Assembly: GCF_029531655.1 (NCBI RefSeq)
Contig: NZ_JANRMI010000002.1
Coordinates: forward strand, 310,001-374,000
DNA length: 64,000 nucleotides
Source: Bdellovibrio svalbardensis
GTDB lineage: Bacteria; Bdellovibrionota; Bdellovibrionia; Bdellovibrionales; Bdellovibrionaceae
Direction: 5' to 3'
The position numbers and the translations under genes were made by a program. Of the stretch, positions 1,109 to 26,244 are shown piece by piece (position 1 is the first letter of the stretch; each line of letters starts with the position of its first letter). The notes below the pieces were generated by a model, which was given only the letters and a program-made list of their open reading frames with translations, was not told the DNA's origin and did not search any database.

Positions 1109-1133
1109 TTCAAATCTTTAAATTTAGAAAAGA

Positions 1134-2300
1134 TTATTTTCTTTCTGACAAAGGAACAACTTTACGTTGTTCAGCACCCACGTACTCAGACAATGGACGA
1201 ATGATACGGTTGTCAGCAGTTTGCTCCATGATGTGAGCAGACCAACCCGTTGTACGAGCCATTACGAAGATCGGTGTAAAGAAGTCGATCTCGAAGCCCA
1301 TCATGTAGTAAGCAGGACCCGCTGGGAAATCCAAGTTAGGGTAGATCTTTTTCTTCTCAACCATAACTTTTTCCAAAGCCGTGTACATCTGCATCCATTT
1401 TTGCTCGCCAGTCACATCAGCCATAACTTGCGCATATTTTTTCATAGTTGGAACGCGCGAGTCACCAGAACGGTAAACGCGGTGACCGAAGCCCATCACT
1501 TTTTTCTTATTAGCAAGAGCATCCAACATCCACGCTTCAGCTTTTGCTGGATCCGCGATCTCTTTCATCATGTGCATAACCATCTCATTCGCACCACCGT
1601 GCAAAGGACCTTTTAAGGCACCGATACCTGCAACAGTTGCAGAGTAGATATCAGACTGAGTTGAAGTCACAACACGCGCTGTGAAAGTTGAAGCATTGAA
1701 GCTGTGTTCAGCGTAAAGGATCAAAGAAACGTCAAAAGCTTTAACAACTTCTTTTTGTGGAACTTTACCGAAGCACATGTGGAAGAAGTTTTCTGCCATC
1801 GTCAAATCAGCTTTTGGAGGGATAAAGTCCAAACCTTTTTTGAAACGGTAGTCGGCAGCAACTGCAGTTGGGATCTTAGCAAGCAACATCATGGCTTTAT
1901 CAAGATTTGTTGCAGGAGTCGCATCCCAGATACGTGGATCTTCAGCACCCATGAAAGAAACCGCAGTGCGGATTGAATCCATCGGGTGGCATTTTTGTGG
2001 AAGAGCTTTGATTACGTTCAACAAAGTTGCAGAGATATCACGGTAGCTGCGTTCTTTTTTCGTGAAGTCAGCAAGTTGAGCCGCTGTTGGCAACTCACCA
2101 TTGTACATCAAGAAAGCCACTTCTTCGAAAGAGCAGTTCTCAGCCAAGTCTTGAACTGGGTAACCACGATAGATCAAAGAGTTAGTGTGTGGGTTTACTT
2201 TTGATACTGAAGACGTATCCATAACAACGCCATCAAGACCTTTTTTAACGTTCATTTTCTCTGGTTCAGGCACGTAATCTGGATTGATATATTCAGCCAT
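1134..2300 (-). CDS. prpC: 2-methylcitrate synthase / citrate synthase
   Basis: Condenses oxaloacetate with propionyl-CoA (methylcitrate cycle) or acetyl-CoA (TCA cycle) in the cytosol. The protein has 388 residues, the short type typical of PrpC and Gram-positive-like citrate synthases rather than the ~430-residue proteobacterial GltA. The catalytic triad is visible as H234 (GPLHGGANE), H273 (MGFGHRVYR) and D324 (NLDFPAGP). The N-terminal region (KKGLDGVVMDT and SLIYRGYPVQDL) resembles mycobacterial PrpC as I remember it. The window also carries prpB and prpD, and this gene shares its upstream palindromic element with prpD, which favours a methylcitrate role. The start is supported by GAGG about 7 nt before ATG. 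The gene is monocistronic with its own terminator. It could instead be the only citrate synthase, or act in both pathways. Confidence 0.88.
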   Translation of the reverse strand: MAEYINPDYVPEPEKMNVKKGLDGVVMDTSSVSKVNPHTNSLIYRGYPVQDLAENCSFEEVAFLMYNGELPTAAQLADFTKKERSYRDISATLLNVIKALPQKCHPMDSIRTAVSFMGAEDPRIWDATPATNLDKAMMLLAKIPTAVAADYRFKKGLDFIPPKADLTMAENFFHMCFGKVPQKEVVKAFDVSLILYAEHSFNASTFTARVVTSTQSDIYSATVAGIGALKGPLHGGANEMVMHMMKEIADPAKAEAWMLDALANKKKVMGFGHRVYRSGDSRVPTMKKYAQVMADVTGEQKWMQMYTALEKVMVEKKKIYPNLDFPAGPAYYMMGFEIDFFTPIFVMARTTGWSAHIMEQTADNRIIRPLSEYVGAEQRKVVPLSERK

Positions 2301-2312
2301 TTTTTCCTCTTG

Positions 2313-2350
2313 GGTACGCCGTACCTTTTTGAGGCTCAGCGTGTTAATTT
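2313..2350 (-). promoter_or_regulatory. Palindromic upstream element, copy 1 (before prpC)
   Basis: The perfect palindrome GGTACGCCGTACC at 2313-2325 lies 12 bp before the prpC ATG, immediately upstream of the ribosome-binding site. The next ~25 bp, through an A5 tract (minus strand) and TGAGCCTC, is almost identical to the sequence before prpD (20736-20774). This shared block is most simply an operator or promoter element for a dimeric regulator. The regulator is not identifiable here. Confidence 0.6.
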
Positions 2351-2541
2351 TATGAAAATGTAATGGCTAAAACTAGTCCCTGGCATCCTTTGGGTCAAGA
2401 ACGGAGCTGCTGAAGTATTCTACTTCCGGCGCTGGTGGCGCATCGTTTCCTCGAAAATGCTTGAAATTTGGGATGTCGATACGCCGTGTTGGAGTTGAAT
2501 TGGATTGTGGTTGGCTTGTTGCCATTTTTTGAGGGGCGGAT

Positions 2542-2856
2542 TTACTTTCCAGATGATGGAAAATAAGGAATTTCTATCACCGCACGCATTCCGTTTCGTG
2601 ACATCATCGCGCCGATAATATGGCGAACGGCGGTGATGTTTTTTCCTTTCGTACCGATAACGCGACCGAGGGCCTGAGGTGTGCAATCCACCTGATAGAC
2701 GACGGTCTTTTCACCAACATAAAACTTCACAGCCAGAGTCTCCTCAGAGCCAACAAGTTCCGCCAACAAATGATGAAGAATGTTGCGAATTCTTTCATGG
2801 GCATCTGTTGTCGCAGAAGTTCTATTTACTACTTTCACAACTGGTACTGAGCTCAT
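2542..2856 (-). CDS. KH-domain RNA-binding protein (KhpA-like)
   Basis: A 104-residue protein with a single type II KH domain in its C-terminal two thirds. The GxxG nucleic-acid-binding loop is visible as IGTKGKNI after the VDCTPQALGRV strand-helix. KhpA/YlqC proteins bind RNA broadly and take part in sRNA biology and cell-length control in Gram-positives. The usual length is 75-80 residues, so this protein has an N-terminal extension of about 25 residues. AGAGGA lies 7-8 nt before the ATG. A small hypothetical gene lies 17 bp upstream in the same direction, so the two may be co-transcribed. No partner (KhpB/Jag) is seen in the window. Confidence 0.8.
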   Translation of the reverse strand: MSSVPVVKVVNRTSATTDAHERIRNILHHLLAELVGSEETLAVKFYVGEKTVVYQVDCTPQALGRVIGTKGKNITAVRHIIGAMMSRNGMRAVIEIPYFPSSGK

Positions 2857-2873
2857 TGCATTTTCCTCTTTTT

Positions 2874-3071
2874 TTAAAGCTCATCATCGGAAATGTATTT
2901 AAACAATGTCTCATTGATAGAGTCCTGAATTCTTTGATCCCCATAATCCTTGGGAACATCGCCGTGAAAGTGGTGCTTCATGAAAAGCCGGAAGCACTTA
3001 TCAGTCGGGGTTTTTACGTCTCTGTAATAAACGCTCAAAATTGCGAGATTCCTTTCCGATACTTTCAACAT
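2874..3071 (-). CDS. Small hypothetical protein (65 aa)
   Basis: A short charged open frame just upstream of the KH-domain gene with 17 bp between them. I recognise no domain. It lacks a clear Shine-Dalgarno site, and its start codon overlaps the start of the oppositely oriented lipoprotein gene at 3070. It could be a real small gene co-transcribed with the KH-domain gene, or a chance frame. The C-terminus is acidic (SDDEL) and there is no signal peptide or membrane segment. Confidence 0.4.
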   Translation of the reverse strand: MLKVSERNLAILSVYYRDVKTPTDKCFRLFMKHHFHGDVPKDYGDQRIQDSINETLFKYISDDEL

Positions 3072-3354
3072 GGCAGTGTTTTGGGACTTTTGGAAATTCT
3101 TAACCCTAGCTTTTGTTGCAGCTCTTCTGAGTGCCTGCAGTATCGAGGCTTCTTTAGAGGCTCTGAGTCCTCAATTTTTTCAAACGACTGTGGAATCGGG
3201 AGCGACCCGAGTTTCGACGTTCAAGGCTTCGGGGACCGAGTTCAGTTCCAAGTCAGTTTCTGGCGATGGCAGATACAAAGTTAAAAGTACGGTGGGGCCG
3301 ATGGTCAGTCATCTTAAAGTGCGCAGCGGAATTTATGATGTGGATTTAAACTAG
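3070..3354 (+). CDS. Small lipoprotein upstream of the giant fibre gene
   Basis: A 94-residue protein with a textbook lipoprotein signal: hydrophobic stretch FLTLAFVAALLSAC with lipobox LSAC at about residue 23. The mature part is about 70 residues, Ser/Thr/Val-rich and probably beta-structured; I recognise no family. Its TAG stop (3352-3354) overlaps the AGGCGG ribosome-binding site of the giant fibre gene, so the two are tightly coupled. Association suggests an outer-membrane anchor or assembly partner of the fibre; this is inference. No strong Shine-Dalgarno site precedes the ATG at 3070, and a GTG at 3076 is an alternative start. Confidence 0.65.
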   Translation: MAVFWDFWKFLTLAFVAALLSACSIEASLEALSPQFFQTTVESGATRVSTFKASGTEFSSKSVSGDGRYKVKSTVGPMVSHLKVRSGIYDVDLN

Positions 3355-3364
3355 GCGGTTGTTG

Positions 3365-6300
3365 ATGAAGCTAACTCTGGTCACTTATATTTTGACGTTA
3401 GGTGTATCCAATGCCTGGGCCAATCCTGTCGGCGTGCACTTAAGTGGACATATCAGTAACAGTGCAACAGGTACTTCTTTAAATGCGACCAACGTAGACT
3501 TTGTCGTTAAGGTCTTGAGCCCCGGAGGCTGTCTTCTTTATTCCGAAAATCACTTAGGCAAAGATCTTTCACAGACCTCGGGCAACTTCGATATCGACAT
3601 CGGGACAGGTTCGACGGCTTACAACGTCTATGACGGAGTGACTCCGCAAAGTACTGCGTCCGTGGTAAAAGTTTTTGATAAGGCGGCACCTGCGCTGTCT
3701 GGCTTAACTAATGTAGATACCGGGGGATGTCCTGGTGGTGTGTACACTCCTGCTGCGAATGATTTGCGCCAAGTGCGTATTGAGTTTGATGCCCATGATG
3801 GCCTTGGTGTGCAGATCATTCAGCCATATCATAAGGTAACGAATATTCCATTTGCTTTGCTTGCAGAAAAAGCCGGCGATTCTGAAAGTCTTCAAGGTAA
3901 AGTGGCTAGTGATTTCGTTTTGAATTCGGATCTTGCAACTGTAGTTCCTGAAAATGAAACCGATCCTTCTGTGAAGGCGTTCGCAAAAGCGAATTTGCCT
4001 TCATGTAATGCGGGCGAGGTCTTGAAAGCCTCAGGTGGAGTTCTGACTTGCGTGAGTGCTGGTGGTTCAGTTGCTGTGGCAACGACGACTTCGACGGGTA
4101 TGGTGCAAGTGGGCAGTGGTCTTTCGGTCGACGGTGTTGGTTTATTGACGACAGATAATGCAGTTATCAAGGCTGGTTTGGGGCTGGCGATCCCGGATGT
4201 TTCAGGATTGCAGACAGCTTTGAATGACCGTGTTTTGTATTCGCAAATGCCGTCCTGTACTGCTGGGCAAACTTGGACTTTCGTTTCCCCGGTGGGTGGG
4301 TTTGTTTGTACATCGACATCGATCACAGCCTCGCAGGTGAGTGACTTTAGTACCGCAGTGGATGCAAGGATTGCTGCCGATACAACCAAGTTGCCTTTAA
4401 GCGGTGGCACCATGAGTGGTGCGATTGATATGAATGGTCAGAATTTGACCTTAACGGGTTACATCACGATGAACCCTTCGAAGTCATTGCATTTATCAAA
4501 CAATGCTGTGGATCCAGTGGGATTAACTCCTGCCGATAAAGGTAAAGTTTGGTTCAACTCGACAAGTAACGAGATTAAATACTGGGACGGCACGCAGGCT
4601 AAAGTCATAGGGACTGCAGGGGCTGGTCTTCAATCAATGAATGGCTTGAGTGACAACACTCAGACTTTTGCAACGGGCTCGAGCGGATCTGATTTCAATA
4701 TCAATTCAGCTTCTGGAGTTCACACATTCAATATCCCAAGTGCTTCTGCATCGAATCGCGGCCTTTTGACAGCAGCGGACTATACAGCCTTTTCGAATAA
4801 ACTTTCTGCAGTGAGTGGCAGTGCTTTGCCTGCCGCGCAAATTTGGGTGGGTAATGCCGGCGGGAATGCCGCAGCTGTTTCGCTCAGTGGTGATGTGACG
4901 ATTGATAATGCAGGTGTTGCGACTTTGAAAAGCACGGGCACTGCGGGTACTTACTATAAAGTAACGACAGATGCCCAAGGTCGTGTCTCAAGTGGTGTTG
5001 CGACACTGGCTGTTTCAGATGTGACAAGCCTACAAACGAGTTTAGATGCGAAAGTCCCGTACTCGCAGCTTTCAACTTGTACTGATAATCAAACTTTGAA
5101 ATTCATTTCCCCAGTGGGTGGTTTTTCTTGCGTGAACATCGCGATCACCGCTTCGCAGGTAACTGACTTCAGTACAGCAGTGGATGCGCGAATTGCTGCA
5201 GACACTACAAAATTGCCTGTAGCTGGCGGAACGATGACGGGCACCTTGAATATGGGTGGCCAAGATATCACGAATGCGGGCAATGTTTCATTGGCTTCTA
5301 ATAAGAATCTGCAACTGGGTTCTTATGCGGCCGATCCATCCACAGCAGGCTGGGGAGCAACAGAAAAAGGTCGTACTTGGTTTAATACCACCAGTAATCA
5401 GATTAAGTACTGGGATGGATCTTCAGTTCAAGCCTTGGGAATTTCGGGAGCCGGCTTAACTTCATTCAATGGCCAAGTTGGTTCGACTCAAACTTTGGCC
5501 GTTCCAGGTACATCAGGTGCTGCTCCAAACTGGTCGTCATCAGGCAATGTTCATACGTTGAATATTCCATTGGCTTCTTCGGCGGGGTCGACGGCGGGTC
5601 TTTTAAGTAAAGCTGATTACGATTCGTTTGTGGCGAAGCAGCCTGCTGGTAACTACGTCACGGCTTTGACAGGTGATGTGACTGCGGCGGGGCCTGGCTC
5701 TGCGGCAGCGACAATTGCCGCGAATGCAATCACAACAGGCAAAATCTTAGACGGCACTATTTTAGGTGCTGATTTGAATTTCACGGGCGTGAACACCGCA
5801 ACTTCTGGAATTGCGGTTGTTGATTCCACGGGCAAGTTTAATAACTTTGCCTGCTCCACCTCAGGCCACATTGCAACGTGGACGGCGACAGGTTGGACAT
5901 GTCAAGCTCCCGCAACAAATGGAACTGTGACGAATGTTGCGACGGGTACTGGATTAACCGGTGGTCCAATTACAGGAACTGGTACGATTTCTTTGGCTAG
6001 TACTGCGGTGACTGCGGCTTCTTATGGTTCTGCAACTCAAGTGGGAACATTTACGGTGGATGCTCAAGGTCGTTTGACTGCTGCATCGAATGTAACAGTA
6101 ACTCCATCTTGGTCTTCGATCACGGGAACTCCGACAACACTCAGTGGTTACGGAATCACGGATGGCGTGCAAAATAGTGGTGGCACTCCAAGTATGCAAA
6201 CGGGAACGTTGGCAGCTCGTCCTGCTTTTGGAACTGCGGGCAGAATCTATATCGCTTCTGACACGAATACGATCTATCGCGATACGGGTTCTACATGGGT

Positions 6301-9300
6301 TGCAATTGGTGACGGTACCGGAGCTGGTGGCACGGTCAGTAACGTTTCCAGTTCGACTGCTGATATCAGTGTGGCAACAGGAACGACAACACCGGTGTTG
6401 ACTTTGAACTCAGGGACAACTGGTGGCGGTAGTGATGCGAATAAGATCGCGAAACTTGATGCGAGTGGTTTGCTGGCTCCAGCGATGATTCCGTCCATTG
6501 ATGCTGCGAAAATTTCGTCTGGAACATTGCCAGTCGCTCGTGGTGGTACAAATTCAGCAGCAGCATTGACAAATAATAAAGTCATGGTTTCAAGTGGTGG
6601 CGCGATTGTCGAGGCAGCGGCGATAACTGCAAATAAAGCTTTGATTTCGGATGCTAATGGTATTCCAACTCACTCGACAGTGACGAATACAGAACTTGGC
6701 TACTTATCAGGTGTCACTTCAGCAGTTCAAACTCAGTTGAATGCGAAGTCTTCATCTACTGGTTGGTCGAACTACAGCGTCATTGCAACGAACGGTTCGG
6801 GCACCATGACTGCGGTTACAGGTTCTGCAGTTGGAAGTATTTTGCAGTATTCTGCAACTGGTCCGGTGTATTCAACAGCAACTTATCCAAGTTCAACAAC
6901 AGCAAATCAGTTGTTGTTCTCTTCAGCGAACAACGTTGTGGGTGGATTAACTTCTGCCAATGACTCAGTTCTTTTAACGAATGGTACTGGTGTGCCGGCT
7001 TGGTCGGCAAAGACAGCTGATGCATTCACGCAGTACGCTTTGTTGGCAGGTCGTGCTGGTGGTCAGTCAATTAATGGTGGAACAGCGGCAAGTAATAATT
7101 TGACGTTAGATTCTACAGCGAATGCAACTAAGGGTTATGTTCTTATCAACCCAACAGGCGGCAATGTTGGTGTTGGAACTGCGACTCCAGCGATCAAACT
7201 CGATGTTGCGGGTGCGGTTCGTGTTGGTACGGATGCAACAGCCTGTGCGGCAGGTGTTGCAGGCGCGATCCGTTATAACGGTGGTAATGTCGAGTATTGT
7301 AATGGAACTGCGTGGACTGCTTTTGCGGCGAGTGGTGCTGGGATTACTTCGTTTAATGGTATGACGGGTAATACGCAAACGTTGGCGGTACCAGGCACAA
7401 CTGGGAATGCTCCTAATTGGTCATCGGCTTCGAATATTCACACTTTGAATATTCCGATGGCGAATACTGGCTCGGTAACAGCGGGTCTTATTAGTAAAAC
7501 TGAATATGACAACTTCAATACAAAATTGGGAACTGGATCAACATTCTCTGGTGACGTGTCTGGAACTTACAACGCGATGTCAGTGGATAGAATTAAAGGC
7601 AAAGCGGTTAGTGCAACTGCGCCAACTGATACTCAGTTCTTAGTCTATAACAATGGTGCGACTCAGTATGCTCCCGTGAGCATGTCTGGCGACGCGACAA
7701 TGGCGAATACTGGTGCTGTGACTTTGAAAAACACTGGTACTGCTGGAACATACACTAAAGTCACAACAGACGCCCAAGGTCGTGTGACTTCAGGAACTAC
7801 TTTAGTAGCTGCCGACATTCCAGGATTAGATTGGACTAAGATTACTTCCGGTATACCAACTACACTAAGTGGTCATGGAATCACTGATGGCGTACAAAAC
7901 AATGGTGGCACTCCAAGTATGCAAACAGGAACGTTTGCGGCTCGTCCAGCATTTGGAACTGCGGGCAGAATCTATATCGCTTCTGATACGAACACAATCT
8001 ATCGCGATACAGGTGCAGCTTGGGTTGCGATCGGTGATGGTGCCGGTGCAGGCACTGTGACTTCGATCACAGCTGGAACTGGCTTAACGGGTGGTACGAT
8101 CACCTCAGCTGGAACTATTGGCTTAGGCACAGAGTTGACGGGATTGAATGGACTTTCAACAACTGGTTTCGTTAAGCGTACTGGCGCTGGTACATATACC
8201 ACCGCGGCAGCAAGTTTAACGGCTGATGTTTCAGGTGTTTTGCCGGTTGCAAACGGTGGTACAAATTCTTCGACAGCTTTGACTAATAACAAAGTGATGG
8301 TTTCAAGTGGTGGTGCAATTGTTGAGGCCACTGCAATTACTGCAAACAGAGCGTTGATTTCGGATGCGAGTGGCATTCCAACTCACTCTGCGGTGACGAA
8401 TACTGAGCTTGGCTATCTGTCAGGTGTTACTTCTGCAGTTCAAACTCAGCTGAATGCAAAATCATCTTCAACTGGCTGGTCAAATTATAGTGTTATTGCA
8501 ACGAATGGTTCCGGGACGATGACAGCAGTCACTGGCTCTGTAAACGGTTCGATCTTGCAATATTCTGCGACGGGTCCGGTTTATTCTACGGCTTCTTATC
8601 CAGGTACAACGACCGCAAATCAATTGTTGTTCTCTTCAGCTAATAACGTGGTTGGTGGTTTGACATCGGCGAATGACTCAGTTCTTTTAACGAATGGTAC
8701 TGGTGTGCCTGCTTGGGCTGCAAAAACAGCAGATACTTTCACTCAATACGCGCTATTGGCAGGTCGTGCTGGTGGGCAGGTGTTGAATGGTGGAACAGCG
8801 GCAAGCAATAACTTGACGTTGGATTCGACAAACAATGCTACTAAGGGTTATGTTCTGCTAAATCCAACTGGCGGTAATGTTGGTATCGGCACTGCGACTC
8901 CTGCGATCAAACTCGATGTGGCCGGTGCGGTTCGTGTCGGTACTGATGCCACAGCCTGCGCGGCGGGTGTTGCGGGTGCGATTCGATATAACGGCGGCAA
9001 CGTTGAGTATTGTAATGGAACCGCTTGGACGGCCTTTGCAGCAAGCGGAGCGGGAATCACTTCATTGAATGGATTGATAGCTGGTACACAAACATTTGCG
9101 ATTGGTACAACTGGAAACTCGCCAGCATTCACCTCCGCAACAAGCACTCATACGTTGAATATTCCAATGGCATCGGCATCGGGAACGGTAACGGCGGGTT
9201 TGTTAAGTAATACTGATTGGACGACATTCAACAATAAACTTGGAACGGCTTCGACATTCTCTGGTGACGTGTCTGGGACATCCAGCACGATGTCAGTGGA

Positions 9301-12300
9301 TAAAATCAAAGGTAAAGCGGTTAGTGCTACTGCGCCTACTGACACTCAGTTCCTCGTCTATAACAACGGTGCCACTCAATATGCTCCGGTGAGTATGTCG
9401 GGTGATGCAACGATGGCAAACACCGGTGCGGTGACTTTGAAAAACACCGGCACCGCTGGAACATACACGAAAGTTACTACAGATGCTCAAGGTCGTGTGA
9501 CTTCTGGTACCACTCTGGCAGCTGCGGATATTCCAGGACTGGATTGGACTAAGATTACTTCTGGTAAGCCGACAACAATTGCGGGCTATGGAATCACAGA
9601 TGCAATTTCTAATCTGGGTGGTACGCCAAGCGTGCAAACGGGGCTATTAGCTTCACGTCCTGCATTTGGCATCGCCGGCAGATTGTATATCGCTTCAGAT
9701 AACAACACGATCTATCGCGATACGGGTGCAGCTTGGGTTGCGATTGGTGATGGTGCTGGTACAGGTACTGTGACTTCGATCACTGCAGGAACTGGTTTAA
9801 CTGGCGGTACAATCACTGCGACAGGGACCATTGGTTTAGGTACAGAGTTGACTGGATTGAATGGTCTTGCGACGACGGGGTTTGTAAAAAGAACCGGCGC
9901 GGGCGCTTATTCAGCAGTGACAAGCGTGGGCTTGTCATCCGACGTGACGGGAACGTTGCCGGTAGCAAATGGTGGTACTAATTCTTCGACGGCATTAACG
10001 AATAATCAGCTGATGTATTCAGGCGCTGGTGCGATTAAAGAGCTAGGCGCGATGACTGACGGTCAAATCGTTGTCGGTAAAAACGCCAGTGCTCCGCAAA
10101 TCGTTTCTATGAGCGGTGATGTGACTGTTTCGAATACCGGCGTAACGACTGTTGGAAAAGTCAATGGCACCACAGTTACAGGTGTGGGTTTAGCAACAAA
10201 TAATATTTTGCAGAACACAGGATCAGCGATAACTGCGAATAGCGTTTTAGTCAGTAACGGCACGGCCACAGGTGTAACCGCATTGACCAGCCCAGCAAGT
10301 GGTGTGTTGACATCTTCAGGGACAGTTCCCTCTTGGTCGACTTCTTTGCCGGCAACGATGGGTGGTACGGGACAGACTAGCTTTGCGGTTGGTGATTTGT
10401 TGTATGCTTCAACAACGACTGCGATGTCTCGCTTGCCTGCTACAACATCCGGTTATGTTTTAACTAGTAACGGTGCGGGTACTGCACCAAGTTGGCAGGC
10501 AGTTTCTGGTGTTATCGCAGGATTGACTGCGGGCCGAGTGACTTTGTCTACGGCCGCTAATTCAGTAGGTGATAGTCCGAACTTTACATTCAACTCATCA
10601 TCTGGCGCGATGGCGATCGGTGGTACTACACCAGCCTTTACATCTGCAGGTGCATTGACTGTGCAGGGCGCTTCAGGTTCTGCAACAACTGTGGGTAACT
10701 CGGGTACGACTTCTAGCTTGGTATTGCAATCTGGTTCTGGTGGTGTTTCTTTAGCGGGCAATACTTCGATTTCGGGTGCAAATACCTTCGCAACGGGTAC
10801 TGGTGCGGTGAGCTTGAATGGTGCGACGACGGTTGCTGCCAATCAAAACTTAACGATGGCTTCTGGTACGGGTGTTCATACACAGACCTTTACTGGGACA
10901 ACAACGGATGCGGCCTCGATCATCGCGAACTCATTGACGACAGGAACAGCGCTGAATTTGACTTCTTCAAGTGCAAGTTTAAATTCAACGGATGGTTTGT
11001 TGTATGTGGCGAACACGGGTGCTTCAACCTCTGGAATGGTTGCCAGAATTCAGTCGAACTCTACCGCAGGGACAGGTTTGACGGTATTAGCAAGCGGCAA
11101 CGTGGGTGTTGGCACAGTAGCTCCGAGTGCGGCTCTTGAAGTTGCGGGCCAAGTTAAAATCACTGGCGGTACTCCGGGCGCAGGCAAAGTGTTGACTTCA
11201 GATGCGGCGGGTTTGGCGACCTGGGCAACTCCTGGTGGTGGCGGAGCTCTCTCTGCGATCACGGCGGCAACCGCAACAAATACCATCGACAACTTAAACT
11301 TCGGTCAAATCTGGAACTGGTCAACGGCGACGACGCAAAGTCCGCTGAGTATTTCCGCGAATGCTTTAACAACCGGCAGCTTGTTAAACTTGACGACTTC
11401 AAATGCATCTGTGAATTCTACGAATGGTTTGTTGTATATTGCGAATACAAGTGCAGCGACGACCGGTACAGTTGCACGGATTCAGTCGAGCTCTGCCAGT
11501 GGCTCTGGTTTAACAGTTCTTGCGAATGGCAACGTCGGTATCGGGGTTGCCGCACCAGGAAAGAACTTGCATGTCTTGGGCTCAAGTCCAACGATTAAGT
11601 TAGAGGCAAGTAGTGGTAGTGCATATTTGGATCTTTCAGCTGGTGTAACGAGCAACAGTTTTACTCGCTATATGTCTCAAAACCAAAGTCGTTGGGAGGT
11701 GGGAAAAGAGCCAACCGCGGAAACCGGTTCTGATGCGGGAAGCGATTTCGTGATCAACAGGATTAGCGATGCAGGCGGTAGCCTTGGGACAGCGCTATTT
11801 ATTAAGCGATTAAATGGTAATATCGGAATCGGTACGACAGCACCAGGTGCAGCCTTAGATGTTAAAGGCGCAATTCGTATGTCCGGCTCAACTTCGGGCT
11901 ACACGGGATTCCAACCATCATCCGCTGCTGGTTCAACAGTTTGGACGTTGCCAAATATTGATGGCACGAACGGTCAGGTCCTGCGAACAAATGGATCTGG
12001 TGGGCTTTCTTGGCTGACGCCAGTTACCAGCTCTACGGGCTTTGTCAACGGTGGAAATAGCTTTGGTAGTATCGCAAGGATTGGAACTAACGATGCCTAT
12101 GATTTTGCACTGGCAGCTTCTGGCGTAACAACGATGACGTTGATCGCTTCTTCCGGTAACGTCGCAATTGGAACAACCAACGCCTCAGAAAAGCTTCATG
12201 TCCGTGGCGCCAATGGAGCTAATATTTCGGCCGACAATTTTGGGGAACAATTCACTGAGTTTTTGTTTAAAAATAATGATATCGCGAAAGCCAATATAAT

Positions 12301-15300
12301 ATGGGACAACACGAATACAACATTGTCCGTCAATAACAATCAAGCTGGACCTCTGAAGTTGGGAACTAGCGGTACAGAGCGTATGAGAATTGATTCTGCA
12401 GGCAATGTCGGCATCGGCGCAACGGCTCCTGTTGATACTCTTTCTATCGGCACAGCACCTGTTGCCAGTGCGACTCGTGCGCAAGTGAACTTGTCGAACA
12501 CAGCTCTTTCTGCTGGTTCTGCGAATGGAACTTACATCGGCGCTAACCCTGCCGCTTATACTGGTGACTTTATTAACTTCCAAGTTGGTAACGCTACTAG
12601 GTTTAAAGTCGATGCCACAGGTAAGGTAACTGGAGATGGTTCTGGTTTGACAGGCGTTACTGCCACAGCAGCACTTTCAGGAGTTACTGCCGCCACTGCC
12701 ACCAATACGATCGACAACTTACTCAATGCGCAGATTTGGAACTGGTCGACGGCGACGACTCAAAGTCCAATGACTATGACAGCAAATGGCCTCACGACTG
12801 GAAGTATTTTATCACTGACCAGTTCGAGCACCGGTAATACTGGCTCAAATGGTTTGCTATATGTTGCTAATACAGCCGCAACCTCAACAGGCACAATTGC
12901 GAGATTTCAGGCTAACTCTACAGCAAACTCAGGTCTTACTCTTTCTGCGAACGGCGACTTAGGCCTTGGAGCAAGTACGAGTATGATAGGAGACTTGGGT
13001 GGATTTGCATATACCCCAAATCTGAATACAATTCTTCATATTAACTCTTCAGGTAATGAAAATGCAGTTCTAATTGTAGACTCAAAATCCGGCACCGGAT
13101 CTCCCCAAATACTTATGCGTGCAGCGAGTGGATCTAACAATCGCATATTTAAAAGTTCTTATTCTGGAAATCTTGTGAATTACAGCTTTGTTGGCGAAAC
13201 CACTGGTACGACCAATCCAGACAATGTCCTTGTAATGTCTAATACAGGGAGTGTCGGCGTTGGTATCATTCCAACAAATTTCTTCTCAGTGTCACCACCT
13301 TACTACCAAACCGGTTATGCATCACAATCTGGAAATACTATCACTGGGACGTCTGGAGCATCTTGGACATCGGCTATGATTGGCTCGCAATTTGTTTTCG
13401 CCAATGGAACCGACGCAGGCACAATTACCGCGGTACCCAGCGGCACGTCACTCACTGTTTCCACATCGCAAACTGTTGGATCTCAAACCTATAGAATTCA
13501 TCAAGTTGGTATACAGCTCACGACAGCCGGAAATGTCGGTATCGGAACAACAACGCCTTCTTCAATTCTTGATGTTAACGGAGCTGAAACTATGCGCGGC
13601 ATGGCGGCTCCGGCAGTGTCTCCGGCGGGGCAAGGTCGCCTCTACTTTGATTCTGCAGCGAATAAGTTCAAAGTTTCTCAAAATGGCGGGGCTTATGTTG
13701 ATTTAGTCAGCGCTGGCGGTGGAGCTTTATCTGGTATCACCGCCGCGACAGCAGGAAATACGATCGACAACTTAAACTTCGGTCAAATCTGGAACTGGTC
13801 AACGGCGACGACTCAGACATTGATGTCAATGAATTCAAATGCGCTAACCACCGGCAGTATGGTGAGTCTGGCCAGCTCTAGTGCCACATTGAATTCCAGC
13901 AATGGTTTATTCTATGTTGCCAACACTGGGTCATCTACCAGTGGAAAAGTAGCAAGAATTCAAGCGAACGCAACCTCAACAACGGGTTTCACAGTCCTTG
14001 CTAACGGCAATGTTGGTGTTAATACCGATAACCCATCGAATCTCTTCCATGTTGCTGGAGGAACAGCTTCCAGCGGGAATGGTAAAGCTGTACGTATAGA
14101 AGGTCAAACTGGTGCCGCTGGCGTAACTCTGGGCGGTGATATTTTGTTGATGCCTGGAGCAAATGGTGCAGGAGGTGGTGCGAATCTTTCGGGTAGAGTG
14201 GGTATTGGAGCATCTCCGACTGCAATGTTGGATGTCTATAGAGCGTGGACTGATATTTCCAACCCTATTGCTCGCTTCACTGATTCTGGCGGCGCGGAGC
14301 TAAAGATTATTGCAAACAGTTCTACATTGATGAGTATAGCTGCAGGTACTGGAGACAGTGTGCGGTTGATTAATAATAGCGAAGTCTCTCCGAATGAAAT
14401 TGTAAATCTCGACTTAGCGACGCATTCACTGCAGTTTACTACCAATGGTAGTGAACGTATGCGTGTAGATAGTAGCGGTAACGTTGGCATTGGCACGACA
14501 AGTCCGAATACTCCGCTACATGTTGTTAACCCCGGAGCTGCTTTTACGACTTATTATGGAATTAAAGGTGAGTTGACTTCGACGACAGGCGGTGATGACA
14601 ACTCCGCTGCGGTTTACGGAAAAACTGCTCATTCCTCTGGTTATGGTGTGGCTGGTGTAAGAGGAGAAGCCACAGCAGGATCGAATACCGTTGGTGTTTC
14701 AGGCGTTGCGATTGCCGGGAAAGGTGTCTCTGGTACAGCGACCACAGGTTATGGTGGCTTCTTCAGCTCTGCTTCTGGCTATGCACTTATTACCTCAGGC
14801 GGAAATGTTGGATTTGGTACTTTTGGGCCCAAATCTAAACTTGACGTTAATGGCGGCATTTCTGTAGGTACCTATGCAGGCACTAATGCCGCCCCTGCAA
14901 ATGGAGTAATAGTTAGTGGCAATGTCGGGATAGGAACAACTGCTCCTGGTTACAACTTGCACGTTGTCGGCACTGCAGGCTTGAGTACAGGTACGGCGTG
15001 GACTTTGGCTTCAGATGCCCGCCTTAAAGATGTTCATGGGGATTACGAATACGGACTGAATGAGATTTTAAAACTTCACACCGTGCGTTTTAACTATAAA
15101 AAAGAAAACGCTTTGAATATTCCATCAGACAAAGCGATGACTGGTTTTATCGCGCAGGAAGTGCAGAAGGTGATTCCTGATGCTGTTCATACTCGCGATG
15201 ATGGATATCTTGAGTTGAATGCGGATCCAATTCACTGGGCGGTGGTGAATGCTGTGAAAGAGTTTTATCAAAAATGGTTTCAAGATTCTCAGCAGATTCA

Positions 15301-15439
15301 TAGAGGTATTGCTTCTGTACAGGCACAGGTTGAAAATAAGGCGGATCAATCTGAAGTGATGCAGTTAAAAACGGAAAACGCGCAGATGAAGGCGTGGATT
15401 TGCAAGCAGGATCCGGTGGCTCCATTCTGTAAAAAATAA
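3365..15439 (+). CDS. Giant mosaic fibre protein with C-terminal peptidase S74 chaperone domain
   Basis: About 4,024 residues, secreted, resembling phage tail fibres and the mosaic adhesive trimer proteins described in Bdellovibrio. The start is taken as the ATG at 3365 because AGGCGG lies 6 nt before it; two in-frame TTG codons just upstream are too close to that site. A signal peptide ends at NAWA. The body is Gly/Ser/Thr/Ala-rich with many repeats. Roughly a dozen motifs of the type GNVGIGTTxP occur. A near-identical 571-residue module is duplicated in tandem (nt about 6,578-8,290 and 8,291-10,000). A TIDNLxxxQIWNWSTATTQ module occurs three times (nt about 11,280, 12,710 and 13,760). The end carries an S74 intramolecular chaperone with the S3883-D3884-A-R-L-K self-cleavage motif, then a C-terminal coiled coil (about residues 3960-4024). 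The family trimerises and the S74 part is cut off after folding. A prey- or surface-adhesive role is inferred. Confidence 0.88.
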   Translation: MKLTLVTYILTLGVSNAWANPVGVHLSGHISNSATGTSLNATNVDFVVKVLSPGGCLLYSENHLGKDLSQTSGNFDIDIGTGSTAYNVYDGVTPQSTASVVKVFDKAAPALSGLTNVDTGGCPGGVYTPAANDLRQVRIEFDAHDGLGVQIIQPYHKVTNIPFALLAEKAGDSESLQGKVASDFVLNSDLATVVPENETDPSVKAFAKANLPSCNAGEVLKASGGVLTCVSAGGSVAVATTTSTGMVQVGSGLSVDGVGLLTTDNAVIKAGLGLAIPDVSGLQTALNDRVLYSQMPSCTAGQTWTFVSPVGGFVCTSTSITASQVSDFSTAVDARIAADTTKLPLSGGTMSGAIDMNGQNLTLTGYITMNPSKSLHLSNNAVDPVGLTPADKGKVWFNSTSNEIKYWDGTQAKVIGTAGAGLQSMNGLSDNTQTFATGSSGSDFNINSASGVHTFNIPSASASNRGLLTAADYTAFSNKLSAVSGSALPAAQIWVGNAGGNAAAVSLSGDVTIDNAGVATLKSTGTAGTYYKVTTDAQGRVSSGVATLAVSDVTSLQTSLDAKVPYSQLSTCTDNQTLKFISPVGGFSCVNIAITASQVTDFSTAVDARIAADTTKLPVAGGTMTGTLNMGGQDITNAGNVSLASNKNLQLGSYAADPSTAGWGATEKGRTWFNTTSNQIKYWDGSSVQALGISGAGLTSFNGQVGSTQTLAVPGTSGAAPNWSSSGNVHTLNIPLASSAGSTAGLLSKADYDSFVAKQPAGNYVTALTGDVTAAGPGSAAATIAANAITTGKILDGTILGADLNFTGVNTATSGIAVVDSTGKFNNFACSTSGHIATWTATGWTCQAPATNGTVTNVATGTGLTGGPITGTGTISLASTAVTAASYGSATQVGTFTVDAQGRLTAASNVTVTPSWSSITGTPTTLSGYGITDGVQNSGGTPSMQTGTLAARPAFGTAGRIYIASDTNTIYRDTGSTWVAIGDGTGAGGTVSNVSSSTADISVATGTTTPVLTLNSGTTGGGSDANKIAKLDASGLLAPAMIPSIDAAKISSGTLPVARGGTNSAAALTNNKVMVSSGGAIVEAAAITANKALISDANGIPTHSTVTNTELGYLSGVTSAVQTQLNAKSSSTGWSNYSVIATNGSGTMTAVTGSAVGSILQYSATGPVYSTATYPSSTTANQLLFSSANNVVGGLTSANDSVLLTNGTGVPAWSAKTADAFTQYALLAGRAGGQSINGGTAASNNLTLDSTANATKGYVLINPTGGNVGVGTATPAIKLDVAGAVRVGTDATACAAGVAGAIRYNGGNVEYCNGTAWTAFAASGAGITSFNGMTGNTQTLAVPGTTGNAPNWSSASNIHTLNIPMANTGSVTAGLISKTEYDNFNTKLGTGSTFSGDVSGTYNAMSVDRIKGKAVSATAPTDTQFLVYNNGATQYAPVSMSGDATMANTGAVTLKNTGTAGTYTKVTTDAQGRVTSGTTLVAADIPGLDWTKITSGIPTTLSGHGITDGVQNNGGTPSMQTGTFAARPAFGTAGRIYIASDTNTIYRDTGAAWVAIGDGAGAGTVTSITAGTGLTGGTITSAGTIGLGTELTGLNGLSTTGFVKRTGAGTYTTAAASLTADVSGVLPVANGGTNSSTALTNNKVMVSSGGAIVEATAITANRALISDASGIPTHSAVTNTELGYLSGVTSAVQTQLNAKSSSTGWSNYSVIATNGSGTMTAVTGSVNGSILQYSATGPVYSTASYPGTTTANQLLFSSANNVVGGLTSANDSVLLTNGTGVPAWAAKTADTFTQYALLAGRAGGQVLNGGTAASNNLTLDSTNNATKGYVLLNPTGGNVGIGTATPAIKLDVAGAVRVGTDATACAAGVAGAIRYNGGNVEYCNGTAWTAFAASGAGITSLNGLIAGTQTFAIGTTGNSPAFTSATSTHTLNIPMASASGTVTAGLLSNTDWTTFNNKLGTASTFSGDVSGTSSTMSVDKIKGKAVSATAPTDTQFLVYNNGATQYAPVSMSGDATMANTGAVTLKNTGTAGTYTKVTTDAQGRVTSGTTLAAADIPGLDWTKITSGKPTTIAGYGITDAISNLGGTPSVQTGLLASRPAFGIAGRLYIASDNNTIYRDTGAAWVAIGDGAGTGTVTSITAGTGLTGGTITATGTIGLGTELTGLNGLATTGFVKRTGAGAYSAVTSVGLSSDVTGTLPVANGGTNSSTALTNNQLMYSGAGAIKELGAMTDGQIVVGKNASAPQIVSMSGDVTVSNTGVTTVGKVNGTTVTGVGLATNNILQNTGSAITANSVLVSNGTATGVTALTSPASGVLTSSGTVPSWSTSLPATMGGTGQTSFAVGDLLYASTTTAMSRLPATTSGYVLTSNGAGTAPSWQAVSGVIAGLTAGRVTLSTAANSVGDSPNFTFNSSSGAMAIGGTTPAFTSAGALTVQGASGSATTVGNSGTTSSLVLQSGSGGVSLAGNTSISGANTFATGTGAVSLNGATTVAANQNLTMASGTGVHTQTFTGTTTDAASIIANSLTTGTALNLTSSSASLNSTDGLLYVANTGASTSGMVARIQSNSTAGTGLTVLASGNVGVGTVAPSAALEVAGQVKITGGTPGAGKVLTSDAAGLATWATPGGGGALSAITAATATNTIDNLNFGQIWNWSTATTQSPLSISANALTTGSLLNLTTSNASVNSTNGLLYIANTSAATTGTVARIQSSSASGSGLTVLANGNVGIGVAAPGKNLHVLGSSPTIKLEASSGSAYLDLSAGVTSNSFTRYMSQNQSRWEVGKEPTAETGSDAGSDFVINRISDAGGSLGTALFIKRLNGNIGIGTTAPGAALDVKGAIRMSGSTSGYTGFQPSSAAGSTVWTLPNIDGTNGQVLRTNGSGGLSWLTPVTSSTGFVNGGNSFGSIARIGTNDAYDFALAASGVTTMTLIASSGNVAIGTTNASEKLHVRGANGANISADNFGEQFTEFLFKNNDIAKANIIWDNTNTTLSVNNNQAGPLKLGTSGTERMRIDSAGNVGIGATAPVDTLSIGTAPVASATRAQVNLSNTALSAGSANGTYIGANPAAYTGDFINFQVGNATRFKVDATGKVTGDGSGLTGVTATAALSGVTAATATNTIDNLLNAQIWNWSTATTQSPMTMTANGLTTGSILSLTSSSTGNTGSNGLLYVANTAATSTGTIARFQANSTANSGLTLSANGDLGLGASTSMIGDLGGFAYTPNLNTILHINSSGNENAVLIVDSKSGTGSPQILMRAASGSNNRIFKSSYSGNLVNYSFVGETTGTTNPDNVLVMSNTGSVGVGIIPTNFFSVSPPYYQTGYASQSGNTITGTSGASWTSAMIGSQFVFANGTDAGTITAVPSGTSLTVSTSQTVGSQTYRIHQVGIQLTTAGNVGIGTTTPSSILDVNGAETMRGMAAPAVSPAGQGRLYFDSAANKFKVSQNGGAYVDLVSAGGGALSGITAATAGNTIDNLNFGQIWNWSTATTQTLMSMNSNALTTGSMVSLASSSATLNSSNGLFYVANTGSSTSGKVARIQANATSTTGFTVLANGNVGVNTDNPSNLFHVAGGTASSGNGKAVRIEGQTGAAGVTLGGDILLMPGANGAGGGANLSGRVGIGASPTAMLDVYRAWTDISNPIARFTDSGGAELKIIANSSTLMSIAAGTGDSVRLINNSEVSPNEIVNLDLATHSLQFTTNGSERMRVDSSGNVGIGTTSPNTPLHVVNPGAAFTTYYGIKGELTSTTGGDDNSAAVYGKTAHSSGYGVAGVRGEATAGSNTVGVSGVAIAGKGVSGTATTGYGGFFSSASGYALITSGGNVGFGTFGPKSKLDVNGGISVGTYAGTNAAPANGVIVSGNVGIGTTAPGYNLHVVGTAGLSTGTAWTLASDARLKDVHGDYEYGLNEILKLHTVRFNYKKENALNIPSDKAMTGFIAQEVQKVIPDAVHTRDDGYLELNADPIHWAVVNAVKEFYQKWFQDSQQIHRGIASVQAQVENKADQSEVMQLKTENAQMKAWICKQDPVAPFCKK
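6538..9990 (+). repeat. Tandem 571-codon coding repeat inside the giant fibre gene
   Basis: Two consecutive copies, period 1,713 nt (the KVMVSSGG segment starts at 6578 and 8291). The encoded residues are nearly identical over long blocks, but many third codon positions differ. Part of the module (GITDGVQNSGGTPSMQTG, nt about 6,150) occurs a third time upstream. Confidence 0.85.
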
Positions 15440-15582: not shown

Positions 15583-16038
15583 ATGGAATTGTCTGTAAAA
15601 AAAATGATTGTCATGGCTTTTTTCTTTTCCACAATTTCGACGGCATTCGCTGGGCATGAGTGGGGAAATGGTGCTCTTGATGTTCCTTTGAGATGTACAA
15701 CCGTTCGCGGCTTGTTTAATGGGCGAGCGTTGATTTACTCTTCAGCAATCCTAGAACGACGCAATCAAGCCTTATATCTAACCGTTTATGATGGAAAAAA
15801 TGCGGTGCCTGTTCAGCAGAGTGTCTATTCCTATAGAAATTTAAGCACGAAGGATGGTGTGGTTGTGCTCACCAGACTTGAAGAATATGCCCGTAGAGAG
15901 AAAATTTGGCTTTATGCCGGAGTTGAAGGATTGATTTCACATAGTCCTAAGGGGGAATTGATTTTCCTTATGAGGTTTGTGACAGATCCATCGAGAACCT
16001 ATTCTACTTTTAAATGCACAGAACTGCCGAAGGAATAA
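15583..16038 (+). CDS. Secreted hypothetical protein paired with a TIGR02147 regulator
   Basis: A 151-residue protein with a Sec signal peptide (VKKMIVMAFFFSTISTAFAG, cleavage near residue 23). The mature domain has two Cys (near the start and near the end, CTT and KCTEL) that could form a disulfide, with alternating polar/hydrophobic strands suggesting a small beta-rich domain. I do not recognise a family. AGAGG lies about 9 nt before the ATG at 15583; an internal ATG (residue 8) is an alternative. The stop is 1 bp before the next gene, so the two form an operon. A periplasmic location is inferred from the signal alone. Confidence 0.72.
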   Translation: MELSVKKMIVMAFFFSTISTAFAGHEWGNGALDVPLRCTTVRGLFNGRALIYSSAILERRNQALYLTVYDGKNAVPVQQSVYSYRNLSTKDGVVVLTRLEEYARREKIWLYAGVEGLISHSPKGELIFLMRFVTDPSRTYSTFKCTELPKE

Positions 16039-16039
16039 C

Positions 16040-16771
16040 ATGTCAGTCTCTGTAGATATTTTGCGTCAGGCTTTTGAAGGGAAGAAATTAAAAAATCCCC
16101 GCTATTCACTTCGGGCTTTTGCCAAGCATCTTGAAATTGGCAGCGGCCGGCTGTCTGAATTTATGAATGGCCAAAGACAGATCACTGAAAGCGTGGCCCG
16201 TAAAATTTCTGAAAGACTCAATCTGAATGAGGAAGAGCGTGAAATATTTTTGGACGCTGTTCGCGTGGAAGAGCAGGGTGAAGTCTATGGGAAGATCCTG
16301 CAAGAGGAAGAGTTTAAATTTTTAATGGATCCTCATTACGTGGCGTTGCTTTCGTTGATTGAAACGAAAGGCTTTGATCACAAGACCTCAACCGCAGCGA
16401 ATCGCCTGGGAATTTCGGAAATACAAGCCAAAGAGGCTATTGAGACATTGCGAAAGTTGAGCTTGCTTGAAGTGAAATCTGGAAAGCTGTGTGCCAAGAG
16501 TCGTAAAACTCAAACAATCACAGAGATCCCTTCTGAGGTGCTGCGTGAAGGGCATAAGCGTCGCTTAAAAGTGGTGGAGAAGGCCATTGATGAAGTGCCG
16601 CTGGCCCTGCGTGACTCATCGGCGATGATCCTGGCTATCGATCCTAAGAAGTTGCCAGAGGCCAAAGAAAAGCTAAAAAAAATGCGCCGCCGATTTGCTG
16701 ACTATCTAGAGACAGGAACTCGCTCCGAGGTTTATATGCTCGCAGTTCATCTCGTCCCGATGACGAAATAA
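16040..16771 (+). CDS. TIGR02147 family protein (HTH / DUF4423-type regulator)
   Basis: A 243-residue cytoplasmic protein. The N-terminus contains a helix-turn-helix-like stretch (YSLRAFAKHLEIGSGRLSEF, about residues 22-41) followed by ARKISERLNLNEEEREIF, characteristic of the TIGR02147 family, originally noted in Fibrobacter and abundant in Bdellovibrio-like genomes. The middle has a second winged-helix-like region (NRLGISEIQAKEAIETLRKLSLLEV) and the C-terminus is basic and helical. The family is of unknown function and is presumed to regulate transcription. It follows the secreted protein gene by 1 bp, so it may control that gene or respond to its product. The next gene is convergent, 5 bp away. 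Confidence 0.75.
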   Translation: MSVSVDILRQAFEGKKLKNPRYSLRAFAKHLEIGSGRLSEFMNGQRQITESVARKISERLNLNEEEREIFLDAVRVEEQGEVYGKILQEEEFKFLMDPHYVALLSLIETKGFDHKTSTAANRLGISEIQAKEAIETLRKLSLLEVKSGKLCAKSRKTQTITEIPSEVLREGHKRRLKVVEKAIDEVPLALRDSSAMILAIDPKKLPEAKEKLKKMRRRFADYLETGTRSEVYMLAVHLVPMTK

Positions 16772-23445: not shown

Positions 23446-26244
23446 CTAGAAGGTTCCGATCGACAAGTGAATTCTCCAAGGACTTTCCCCTGGCTGCATA
23501 TTCAGCTTCCAAGCCATATCGACACTTAATGGTCCGACTGGGGTGTTGTAGCGAATTCCAAAGCCCGTGGAGGCTCGGTAAGGTTCTTTGATATCCAAGC
23601 CCTCAATCAGAACTTCACCGGCATCGTAGAACGCGGCTCCGCCCAAACTGCCGTAAACAGGGAAGCGCAATTCTGACTTGATCAAGAACATCGTAGAGTC
23701 TGTCGTCAGATAGTACTTGTTACTGGTGCCTTCAATGCCCAAGTCTTTATTGTTCGGGAAATACTCAGTCCCGGCTTCATAGCCGCGCACTGTTGAAGTT
23801 CCACCAAGGCTGAATCCCTTTTTATCCCATGGGACACCATTAATATTCGAATTCGTTTGTGCCAAGTTTTTGAGATAACCGCCACGAACCTGGTTGGCCC
23901 ACACAACGGGTTGTTTCTGCCAGCGATCCACATGCCAGTAGTGGGTAAAGCTGGCCACCGCACGCCAGTACTTGATTGTTTCCGTAGAACCAATAACCGG
24001 GTCTGAGTATTCTGCAGTGACCCGAGTGAAAGTTCCACGGGTAGGTGTGAAAGGATTGTCGCGATAGTCAAAGTCCACATTGGGGCCCGTGGTGACGATG
24101 TCTTGGCGGGTCGGTTGGTAAGGATAGCGTTCATCCAAACCATAGTCTTTTACCTGCGCCATTGACCAAACGTCGTAAGTTCCCAGGATATGGGTGGTCA
24201 GATCTTTTTCCAGAGAGTAGGTGTATGAATTCACGTCAGTGATCTGACCGACATTGTAATCGGTAATTTGACTGGAACGAGTGATATTGATGCGACCACG
24301 CAGTTTTGTATCAAACAAATAAGGTTCCAAATAGCCCAGGACAATTTTACTTTCCAGGTATTTAAACTCAGTGACGTTGTAATTTCCTTCAAGGCGCAAA
24401 GAAAGACCGCGTCCGGTTCCCAGAAGATTGCGATAAGCGATGCTGGTGTATCCACGCAAAGTGAAAGTTCGCTCATTTGTCGCGCCGGCACCCACCGTGA
24501 AAAGACCTGGATCACGTTCTGTTACTTTCACCAAAACCGTGCGGTTGGCTTGAGTGGTTTTTTCTTCCAAAGTGCGCACTTCAATGGTGCTGAAGAATCC
24601 CGTACGTTGCAGATGAGTGATCGAGTCTTCAATCTTTTGTGGAGTGATCAATTGCCCCGGTTCAACGTCCAATTCCTTGAGGATGACATAGTCTTTGGTG
24701 AAGTTATTACCCTCAATGACGATGGAGGCCGCGCGTACTTGGGGGCCTTCGAAAATCTTAAAATGAAGAATGGCCTGAGTGCTGGTTTCGTCGTAGGTGA
24801 CGAGATCTTCTTTTTCATTCAGAAGCTGCATCTCGATATAGCCATTGTTTTTATAATAATTTTTGATGTTCGAAACTGCCGCTTCAATTTGACTAAGCTT
24901 TAGAGGTCCCGGATTCAGACTTGTGACCTTAAGAAGCTGTTCATTGGAGTAAGCACTATTGCCGCTGAACTCCACAGCTTTAATAACTGTCAGAGGCCCC
25001 TCGGTCAGATTGACGAAGAGAGTGACTTCCGTTTTGTCGCGATTGTATTGGAAGCGAGTCGAGACGATTTTTGTCTGCAAATAACCTTCGTTTTGCAGCT
25101 GCAAAGCCAGATTGCGCACGCCCGTATCAAGGTCATCCTTGTTAAAGTAGCCCTTATCAACAATCTCTGAACTGTGAGTCTTAATAAAGTGGCTGTAGTA
25201 GGCAGGCTTTCGGCTGAACTTACCATTGATCACAATGTCTTGGATTTTTATCCGTGGGCCTTCGTCGATTTCAAAAACAATTTTCTTAAAGAAGGGAGTA
25301 TTGGTTTCTACTTCCTGCTGGTTCACTTCGGCGCGCGCATAACCTTCCGCCAAGTAGTAAGCGCGAATTTTTTGTGCAAGTTCGGCGCCGATTGTTGGGT
25401 TCGCAGAATAGAAGGTATCCAGATCGATCGCATTCTTGATTTTTCGTTCGCTGAGCAAATAAATGCCTTTGAACTCAAAGGCATACTTTTCAACTCGTTC
25501 CAGGCGATAAGTCAAAGTGGCTTCGGCTTCGTCTTTACTATAAGAGATTGTCGGACCCGTAAGATCGGCGCGAACATAATGCTCTTTAGTTAAAAAATCC
25601 CGGGCGCGTTTGTTGATATCCGCCAAAGTTTTATCGGTTAAAGGATCGTCGACAACTTTTTCGAGTTTGATGGCCAAAGACTTGTTAAGTTCCTGGTTGG
25701 CGCTTTGCAGGATGATGTTTGCGACCAGGGTGCGTTTATTTTCAGTCACTTTAACGTGAATATCAACGTTGCCATCTTCTCGTGGTGGCATTTCGATATC
25801 GATGACGGCATTGAAGAAACCCAGGTCTTTATAGCTTTGACGAAGTTTTTCACCTTGATCAATTAAAGTCTGCTGATCAAAGACGTCGCCGGATTTAATT
25901 GCCAAATAGTTGGCGGCCTCAGACTTGGAAAGATACTTCAATCCCTGGAACTGCACTTCGCCAATACGCTTTGTTTTGATATAGGTCACTTTGTAGACAT
26001 TGCCGCTGTCTAGGACCTGCAAACGATCAAAGTCAGGGCGGAGCTGAATGAAACGAATGATCTCATCAACTTGGTCCAAACCAATGCGATCATTTTGGGC
26101 CTGTGGAAAGCGTTTGTAAATATCAGCGCGCACTTCTGCTGGGAAGTTGGAAAGGTCGATATTTTTTTTAGCCCAAGCCGAACAAGTTCCCAAGGTAATC
26201 AGCAAAGCGGCTGAGAGAGTCAAAGCGCGAGAGGAAAAAATCAT
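23446..26244 (-). CDS. tamA: TamA/BamA-family outer-membrane assembly protein
   Basis: A 932-residue Omp85-superfamily protein that inserts or assembles proteins in the outer membrane. Signal peptide ends near CSAWA (about residue 25). The periplasmic part runs to about residue 540 and shows repeated POTRA signatures (for example IGEVQFQGLKYLS, IKIQDIVINGKFS, IKAVEFSGNSAYS and ASIVIEGNNFTKD), which I count as six or seven. The C-terminal beta-barrel carries the VRGY motif (STVRGYEAGTEYFP) and ends in phenylalanine (SIGTF). It overlaps the TamB gene by ATGA, so it is assigned as the TamA partner. The POTRA count is higher than E. coli TamA (three) or BamA (five), so the symbol is by context. 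A role as a second BamA cannot be excluded. Confidence 0.82.
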   Translation of the reverse strand: MIFSSRALTLSAALLITLGTCSAWAKKNIDLSNFPAEVRADIYKRFPQAQNDRIGLDQVDEIIRFIQLRPDFDRLQVLDSGNVYKVTYIKTKRIGEVQFQGLKYLSKSEAANYLAIKSGDVFDQQTLIDQGEKLRQSYKDLGFFNAVIDIEMPPREDGNVDIHVKVTENKRTLVANIILQSANQELNKSLAIKLEKVVDDPLTDKTLADINKRARDFLTKEHYVRADLTGPTISYSKDEAEATLTYRLERVEKYAFEFKGIYLLSERKIKNAIDLDTFYSANPTIGAELAQKIRAYYLAEGYARAEVNQQEVETNTPFFKKIVFEIDEGPRIKIQDIVINGKFSRKPAYYSHFIKTHSSEIVDKGYFNKDDLDTGVRNLALQLQNEGYLQTKIVSTRFQYNRDKTEVTLFVNLTEGPLTVIKAVEFSGNSAYSNEQLLKVTSLNPGPLKLSQIEAAVSNIKNYYKNNGYIEMQLLNEKEDLVTYDETSTQAILHFKIFEGPQVRAASIVIEGNNFTKDYVILKELDVEPGQLITPQKIEDSITHLQRTGFFSTIEVRTLEEKTTQANRTVLVKVTERDPGLFTVGAGATNERTFTLRGYTSIAYRNLLGTGRGLSLRLEGNYNVTEFKYLESKIVLGYLEPYLFDTKLRGRINITRSSQITDYNVGQITDVNSYTYSLEKDLTTHILGTYDVWSMAQVKDYGLDERYPYQPTRQDIVTTGPNVDFDYRDNPFTPTRGTFTRVTAEYSDPVIGSTETIKYWRAVASFTHYWHVDRWQKQPVVWANQVRGGYLKNLAQTNSNINGVPWDKKGFSLGGTSTVRGYEAGTEYFPNNKDLGIEGTSNKYYLTTDSTMFLIKSELRFPVYGSLGGAAFYDAGEVLIEGLDIKEPYRASTGFGIRYNTPVGPLSVDMAWKLNMQPGESPWRIHLSIGTF

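Follow-up and report, generated by a model that had tools for sequence, protein, structure and literature searches.

A giant MAT fibre gene in Bdellovibrio svalbardensis

The window analysed here is a 64,000-nucleotide stretch of the Bdellovibrio svalbardensis genome (NCBI RefSeq assembly GCF_029531655.1, contig NZ_JANRMI010000002.1, positions 310,001 to 374,000). Near its left edge lies a fibre gene that we call W (Table 1). Judged by its domains, W belongs to the S74 group of the mosaic adhesive trimer (MAT) fibres known from Bdellovibrio. Members of the MAT superfamily have, behind the signal peptide, a conserved N-terminal domain that is about 130-160 residues long. In W this presentation domain is recognised by the NCBIfam profile NF053851.1 (Bdello_MAT_N; E 8.2e-39, 133 bits against a cut-off of 60) and is 87% identical to that of another MAT gene of this genome, S. 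At the opposite end, residues 3883-3942 match Peptidase_S74 (Pfam PF13884, E 1e-11), and this C-terminal domain carries the catalytic SDxxxK motif in the form SDARLK, at S3883. Sequence matches to structures in the PDB include the MATs 8ojn (Bd3182) and 8ond (Bd2133) and, for the S74 part, the S74 domain of MyRF. PHROG tail-fibre families match the module described below and the distal part of W; the neighbours of W that we examined are ordinary chromosomal genes, with no phage genes among them. From its family membership, W would form a homotrimeric fibre on the surface of the predator.

The MAT family was already known, and W is an added member of it, within which a two-module tandem is ordinary. 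For B. bacteriovorus HD100, passages of PMC10769870 describe 21 MATs, 13 of them with an S74 end, as trimeric surface fibres whose base is conserved and whose tips vary, and report that self-cleavage at the S74 serine has been demonstrated for Bd3182. The HD100 S74-group MATs, as they appear in these passages, resemble W in having a conserved N-domain after the signal peptide, a long beta-rich fibre, and a C-terminal S74 domain with SDxxxK and capping-loop motifs. HD100 and the present genome each hold about 20 MAT paralogues with different tips (we count 22 MAT N-domains in B. svalbardensis), but W is about four times the usual MAT length given there, at 4,024 versus about 1,000 residues. At least five MAT open reading frames of this genome exceed 3,000 residues; among the matches listed for 23 further species of the genus, the longest MAT has 2,771.

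Table 1. Features of the fibre gene W (nucleotide positions within the window).
Feature	Position	Strand	Remarks
W, S74-type MAT fibre gene	3365..15439	+	4,024 residues; single open reading frame, ATG at 3365, stop ending at 15439
MAT N-terminal presentation domain	3395..3928	+	Residues 11-188; NF053851; preceded by a signal-peptide-like start
C0, upstream partial C segment	5942..6535	+	Good alignment to the module confined to nt 6131-6327 and 6521-6535
W1, module copy 1	6536..8248	+	571 residues (1058-1628); AB, module residues 1-372; C, module residues 373-571
W2, module copy 2	8249..9964	+	572 residues (1629-2200); in frame with W1
Third module copy, start only	9965..10058	+	Repeat match; then a different shaft block
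Distal shaft and tip	11282..14882	+	About residues 2640-3840; few close relatives among the MATs examined
S74 intramolecular chaperone/protease domain	15011..15190	+	PF13884, residues 3883-3942

Tandem modules that differ mainly at silent sites

An earlier note on this DNA had described two tandem 571-residue modules within one reading frame, alike in protein and different in silent DNA positions, and this description holds. Since a partial copy lies upstream of the two modules and a short one downstream, the array reads C-[AB]-C-[AB]-C. The shaft block that follows the start of the third copy (to about nt 11280) is common to the paralogues S and Q. A single capping-loop-like motif occurs at module residue 210 in both W1 and W2. 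We propose a trimeric shaft fold for the module; an AlphaFold2 run of the monomer gave pLDDT 58.5 and pTM 0.28, a low score that is expected when an obligate trimer is modelled as a monomer but that lends the fold no support. An assembly artefact is unlikely as the source of the tandem, for W1 and W2 differ at 22% of bases and lie inside a 1.01 Mb contig. We take the antisense open reading frames that overlap the modules, such as those at 7999-8376 and 9293-9637 on the minus strand, to be by-products of the coding frame.

Over 570 aligned codons the two module proteins are 86% identical (about 10% for shuffled sequence) with three single-residue indels, and the nucleotide identity is 78%. The DNA differences are dominated by third codon positions, with 63, 36 and 276 at positions 1, 2 and 3, respectively. 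In the longest identical protein runs (71, 59, 49 and 36 residues) 36-53% of third positions are changed, and the stretch KVMVSSGGAIVEA, which the earlier note had given as an example, is identical in both copies and differs in DNA only at third positions. By the NG86 method, pS is 0.584 (bootstrap 95% CI 0.538-0.638) and pN 0.090, corresponding to a dS of 1.13, a dN of 0.095 and a dN/dS of 0.084 (CI 0.059-0.111); LWL85, YN00 and maximum likelihood place dN/dS between 0.05 and 0.11. Synonymous divergence is thus neither low nor matched by the divergence of the protein. For scale, the neighbouring orthologues of G013, the closest species sampled, differ from those of this genome by a pS of 0.34-0.58 where the gene is conserved and of 0.78-0.84 where it is less constrained.

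The best reading of these rates is that each module copy is under ordinary purifying selection, with a dN/dS of about 0.08, and the earlier claim that selection keeps the module protein stands in this sense. A dS of about 1.1 rules out a recent duplication, again as proposed. Recent gene conversion had also been discounted, and for W we see no strong sign of it, the longest DNA run identical between W1 and W2 being 38 nt (permutation P 0.03), a value that leaves room for slight old conversion.

Copy-by-copy pairing with a paralogue

A second array of the form C-AB-C-AB-C is present in the paralogue Q, which lies on another contig and starts near G000:C1:1129000. The module copies of the two genes pair by position. 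Amino-acid identity is 94% for W2-Q2 and 89% for W1-Q1, compared with 86% for W1-W2, and models of nucleotides, codons and amino acids all prefer the quartet (W1,Q1),(W2,Q2), with an AU p of at most 0.003 for the alternatives. Of the informative amino-acid sites, 25 favour the positional pairing, and 7 and 3 the other two. This pairing implies that the duplication is older than the split between the arrays of W and Q. The AU tests reject a separate duplication in each gene, both for the whole module and for codons 226-573.

The pairing signal sits in codons 226-573 of the module. In codons 1-225 the unusual likeness of Q1 and Q2, whose pS over this part is only 0.29, makes the DNA group by gene, and the positional tree is rejected here with an AU p of 0.007. 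Together with an identical run of 92 nt between the Q copies (permutation P below 0.0005), this points to local gene conversion between the module copies in Q.

The copies thus stand closer to their positional counterparts in Q than to each other, and the further suggestion of the earlier note, that selection preserves the repeated state itself, is not borne out. Only the differences specific to each copy and common to W and Q hint at separate roles for the copies. It would follow, if the hint were sound, that the modules are specialised by position, as distinct neighbouring segments that each keep the residues shared with their Q counterpart and not as interchangeable spacers. We think this unlikely; were it true, the modules would set the reach and the local binding or bending of giant fibres in this predator species.

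Shaft blocks across the MAT family

The low dN/dS of the tandem pair is not special among MAT shaft blocks, since single-copy blocks match or exceed the pattern, which also tells against preservation of the repeat as such. The single-copy block of W residues 181-720 is 91% identical to its equivalent in S at a pS of 0.61 and a dN/dS of 0.036. Single-copy comparisons of W with V and X give a dN/dS of 0.059 and 0.034-0.040, respectively, the W-X blocks having a pS of 0.68-0.72, and W residues 2221-2600 give 0.083 against S and 0.052 against Q. Single-copy shaft blocks have 0-1 gap per 150-540 residues.

Different stretches of W have different nearest relatives in the genome. These are S and V for residues 1-780, X, S and V for residues 720-930, Q (then R and T) for residues 1058-2200, S and Q for residues 2220-2640, and T for the S74 end. 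Proximal blocks are conserved and residues 2640-3840 divergent (best matches among the other MATs examined are mostly 30-75%, with one stretch lacking any), the make-up of a multi-gene family with different distal parts. The SDxxxK motif is found near the C-terminus of R, T and W and is absent from Q and S, so the same shaft blocks occur under different ends. At the gltA locus, where W lies, G013 has the neighbouring genes with no MAT gene between them, and none of the eight other species compared gave a MAT N-domain match there. These absences and the changing relatives of W fit frequent gain, loss and reshuffling of MATs. Downstream of W, at 15583-16771 on the plus strand, are genes for a 151-residue secreted-looking protein and a TIGR02147/DUF4423 protein, a pair that G013 carries without the fibre gene. 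Immediately after gene S, at L011:10334-13024 (plus strand), is an 897-residue open reading frame made up of 60-residue tandem repeats.

Other paralogues hold the module in other states. The array reads C-AB-C in R, where about 97 residues are missing from AB, and also in T, where it is diverged and the module has 596 residues; S (module of 612 residues) and U have diverged or partial single copies. Trees of the AB and C segments have modest support at individual nodes. A close full-length module is absent from the 23 other sampled species of the genus (one genome per species), in which the best pieces are 226-residue A blocks at 70-72% and mid-module blocks of about 217-235 residues at 67-73%. 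Diverged tandem units as such are widespread, a scan finding them in most long MATs of this genome and of the genus, with a typical pS of 0.5-0.75 and periods of 246-257, 289-295, 371-378, 432-438, 563, 570-571 and 666 residues. A near twin of the W tandem is the 3,689-residue MAT at L122 (G000:C2:175500-188000, open reading frame 1126-12192, minus strand), whose 666-residue duplication has a protein identity of 84% and a pS of 0.56; this protein also contains 372- and 294-residue sub-units.

Origin of the array

We consider it probable that the array arose long ago, when recombination duplicated a segment of a trimeric fibre shaft, that recombination also reshuffled such segments, and that the copies have since been held under ordinary purifying selection. 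The N-domain would hold the fibre on the predator and be followed by a long, trimeric, beta-rich shaft; the far end would consist of a variable distal part and the S74 domain, which in known members first serves trimerisation and is then removed by cleavage. Shaft blocks of tens to hundreds of residues would be shuffled and multiplied by recombination, within and between MAT genes. The repeat pattern itself suggests such a cause for the array, in that C-AB-C would become C-AB-C-AB-C most simply via unequal crossing-over between the flanking C segments. This step would have preceded the separation of the two-module arrays of W and Q, after which silent changes would accumulate in each copy while purifying selection held the protein, as in all conserved shaft blocks tested. 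The duplication would add length to the fibre and repeat its surface. The 922-residue fibre of Bd3182 measures about 550 Å according to passages of PMC10769870, and the resulting scale of about 0.6 Å per residue, which as the value of one published fibre is a rough guide only, gives roughly 340 Å per module; greater reach may be the benefit.

A different route into W is possible, though somewhat doubtful: the gene may have acquired its two-module block in one piece through inter-gene recombination, with Q or a common donor as the source and with no tandem duplication inside W. The changes of nearest relative, from S at the N-domain (87%) to Q at the array and S or Q at the next block, would suit such a transfer, as would the pairing of W1 with Q1 and W2 with Q2. 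Against it, the silent divergence of W and Q within the array, a pS of about 0.5, does not fall below that of other shared blocks (0.40-0.61), so that any transfer would be old. It concerns how the array entered W and not what the array is, and is compatible with the old shaft-segment duplication that we favour.

The earlier note had further proposed that module length and sequence may matter for fibre geometry or binding. For the sequence this is so in the ordinary sense of purifying selection; for the length it is not supported. A rival reading along this line is a geometric ruler, with selection acting on the 571-residue length and on the two-copy state themselves because sites along the fibre must keep a fixed spacing. 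That W1, W2, Q1 and Q2 all have 570-572 residues despite up to 14% protein divergence, that both genes retain two copies, and that the capping-loop-like motif recurs at module residue 210 in each W copy could be read in this way. The many other unit lengths among MATs, the longer modules of S and T and the 97-residue deletion tolerated in R leave a fixed 571-residue ruler unsupported, however, and indels are just as rare in single-copy shaft blocks, so their low number is not particular to the array. We regard such a ruler as quite improbable. Least credible of all is selection for silent difference itself, by which the copies would have been recoded to block recombination that deletes a module. 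The high synonymous divergence of W1 and W2 and the shortness of their longest identical stretch are what it would predict, but their synonymous codons agree in a proportion of 0.546, against 0.349 under independent choice, so silent sites have not reached full saturation and have not been scrambled. Moreover, their silent divergence does not exceed that of non-tandem pairs (0.58 for W2-Q1 and the higher W-S and W-X values above), and Q retains long identical stretches. Codon scrambling is rejected by the agreement test and the idea is largely refuted.

Comparison with other long fibres

A keyword search and sections of PMC10769870 gave no discussion of long tandem shaft modules, and our literature searches brought up nothing specific on silent divergence of adhesin repeats. 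W shares its S74 chaperone domain with phage tail fibres and tailspikes such as the K1F endosialidase and the T5 L-shaped fibre, but unlike these it is a chromosomal bacterial gene with a MAT N-domain and ordinary chromosomal neighbours. MpAFP of Marinomonas primoryensis, as portrayed in parts of PMC4083281, likewise owes its great length as a surface adhesin to tandem repeats; its 104-residue Ig-like repeats are identical and number about 120, whereas W has two long, diverged modules of a predicted trimeric fibre. The array suggests how Bdellovibrio predators may lengthen and diversify their prey-contact fibres, by duplicating blocks within genes and sharing them between S74 and non-S74 ends while the protein is tightly kept. 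The MATs of this one genome, from about 700 to 4,000 residues, form a natural series of fibre lengths in which reach could be tested against prey range.

Other genes in the window

About 8 kb from W, at 23446-31327 on the minus strand, are three overlapping genes for an Omp85 protein (BamA/TamA-like), a TamB-like protein and a 369-residue protein, likely an outer-membrane translocation and assembly (TAM-like) operon. At 3-902 on the minus strand, cut by the window edge, is a gene for a class D beta-lactamase-like protein (NF012161, E 2.5e-53, below the family cut-off).
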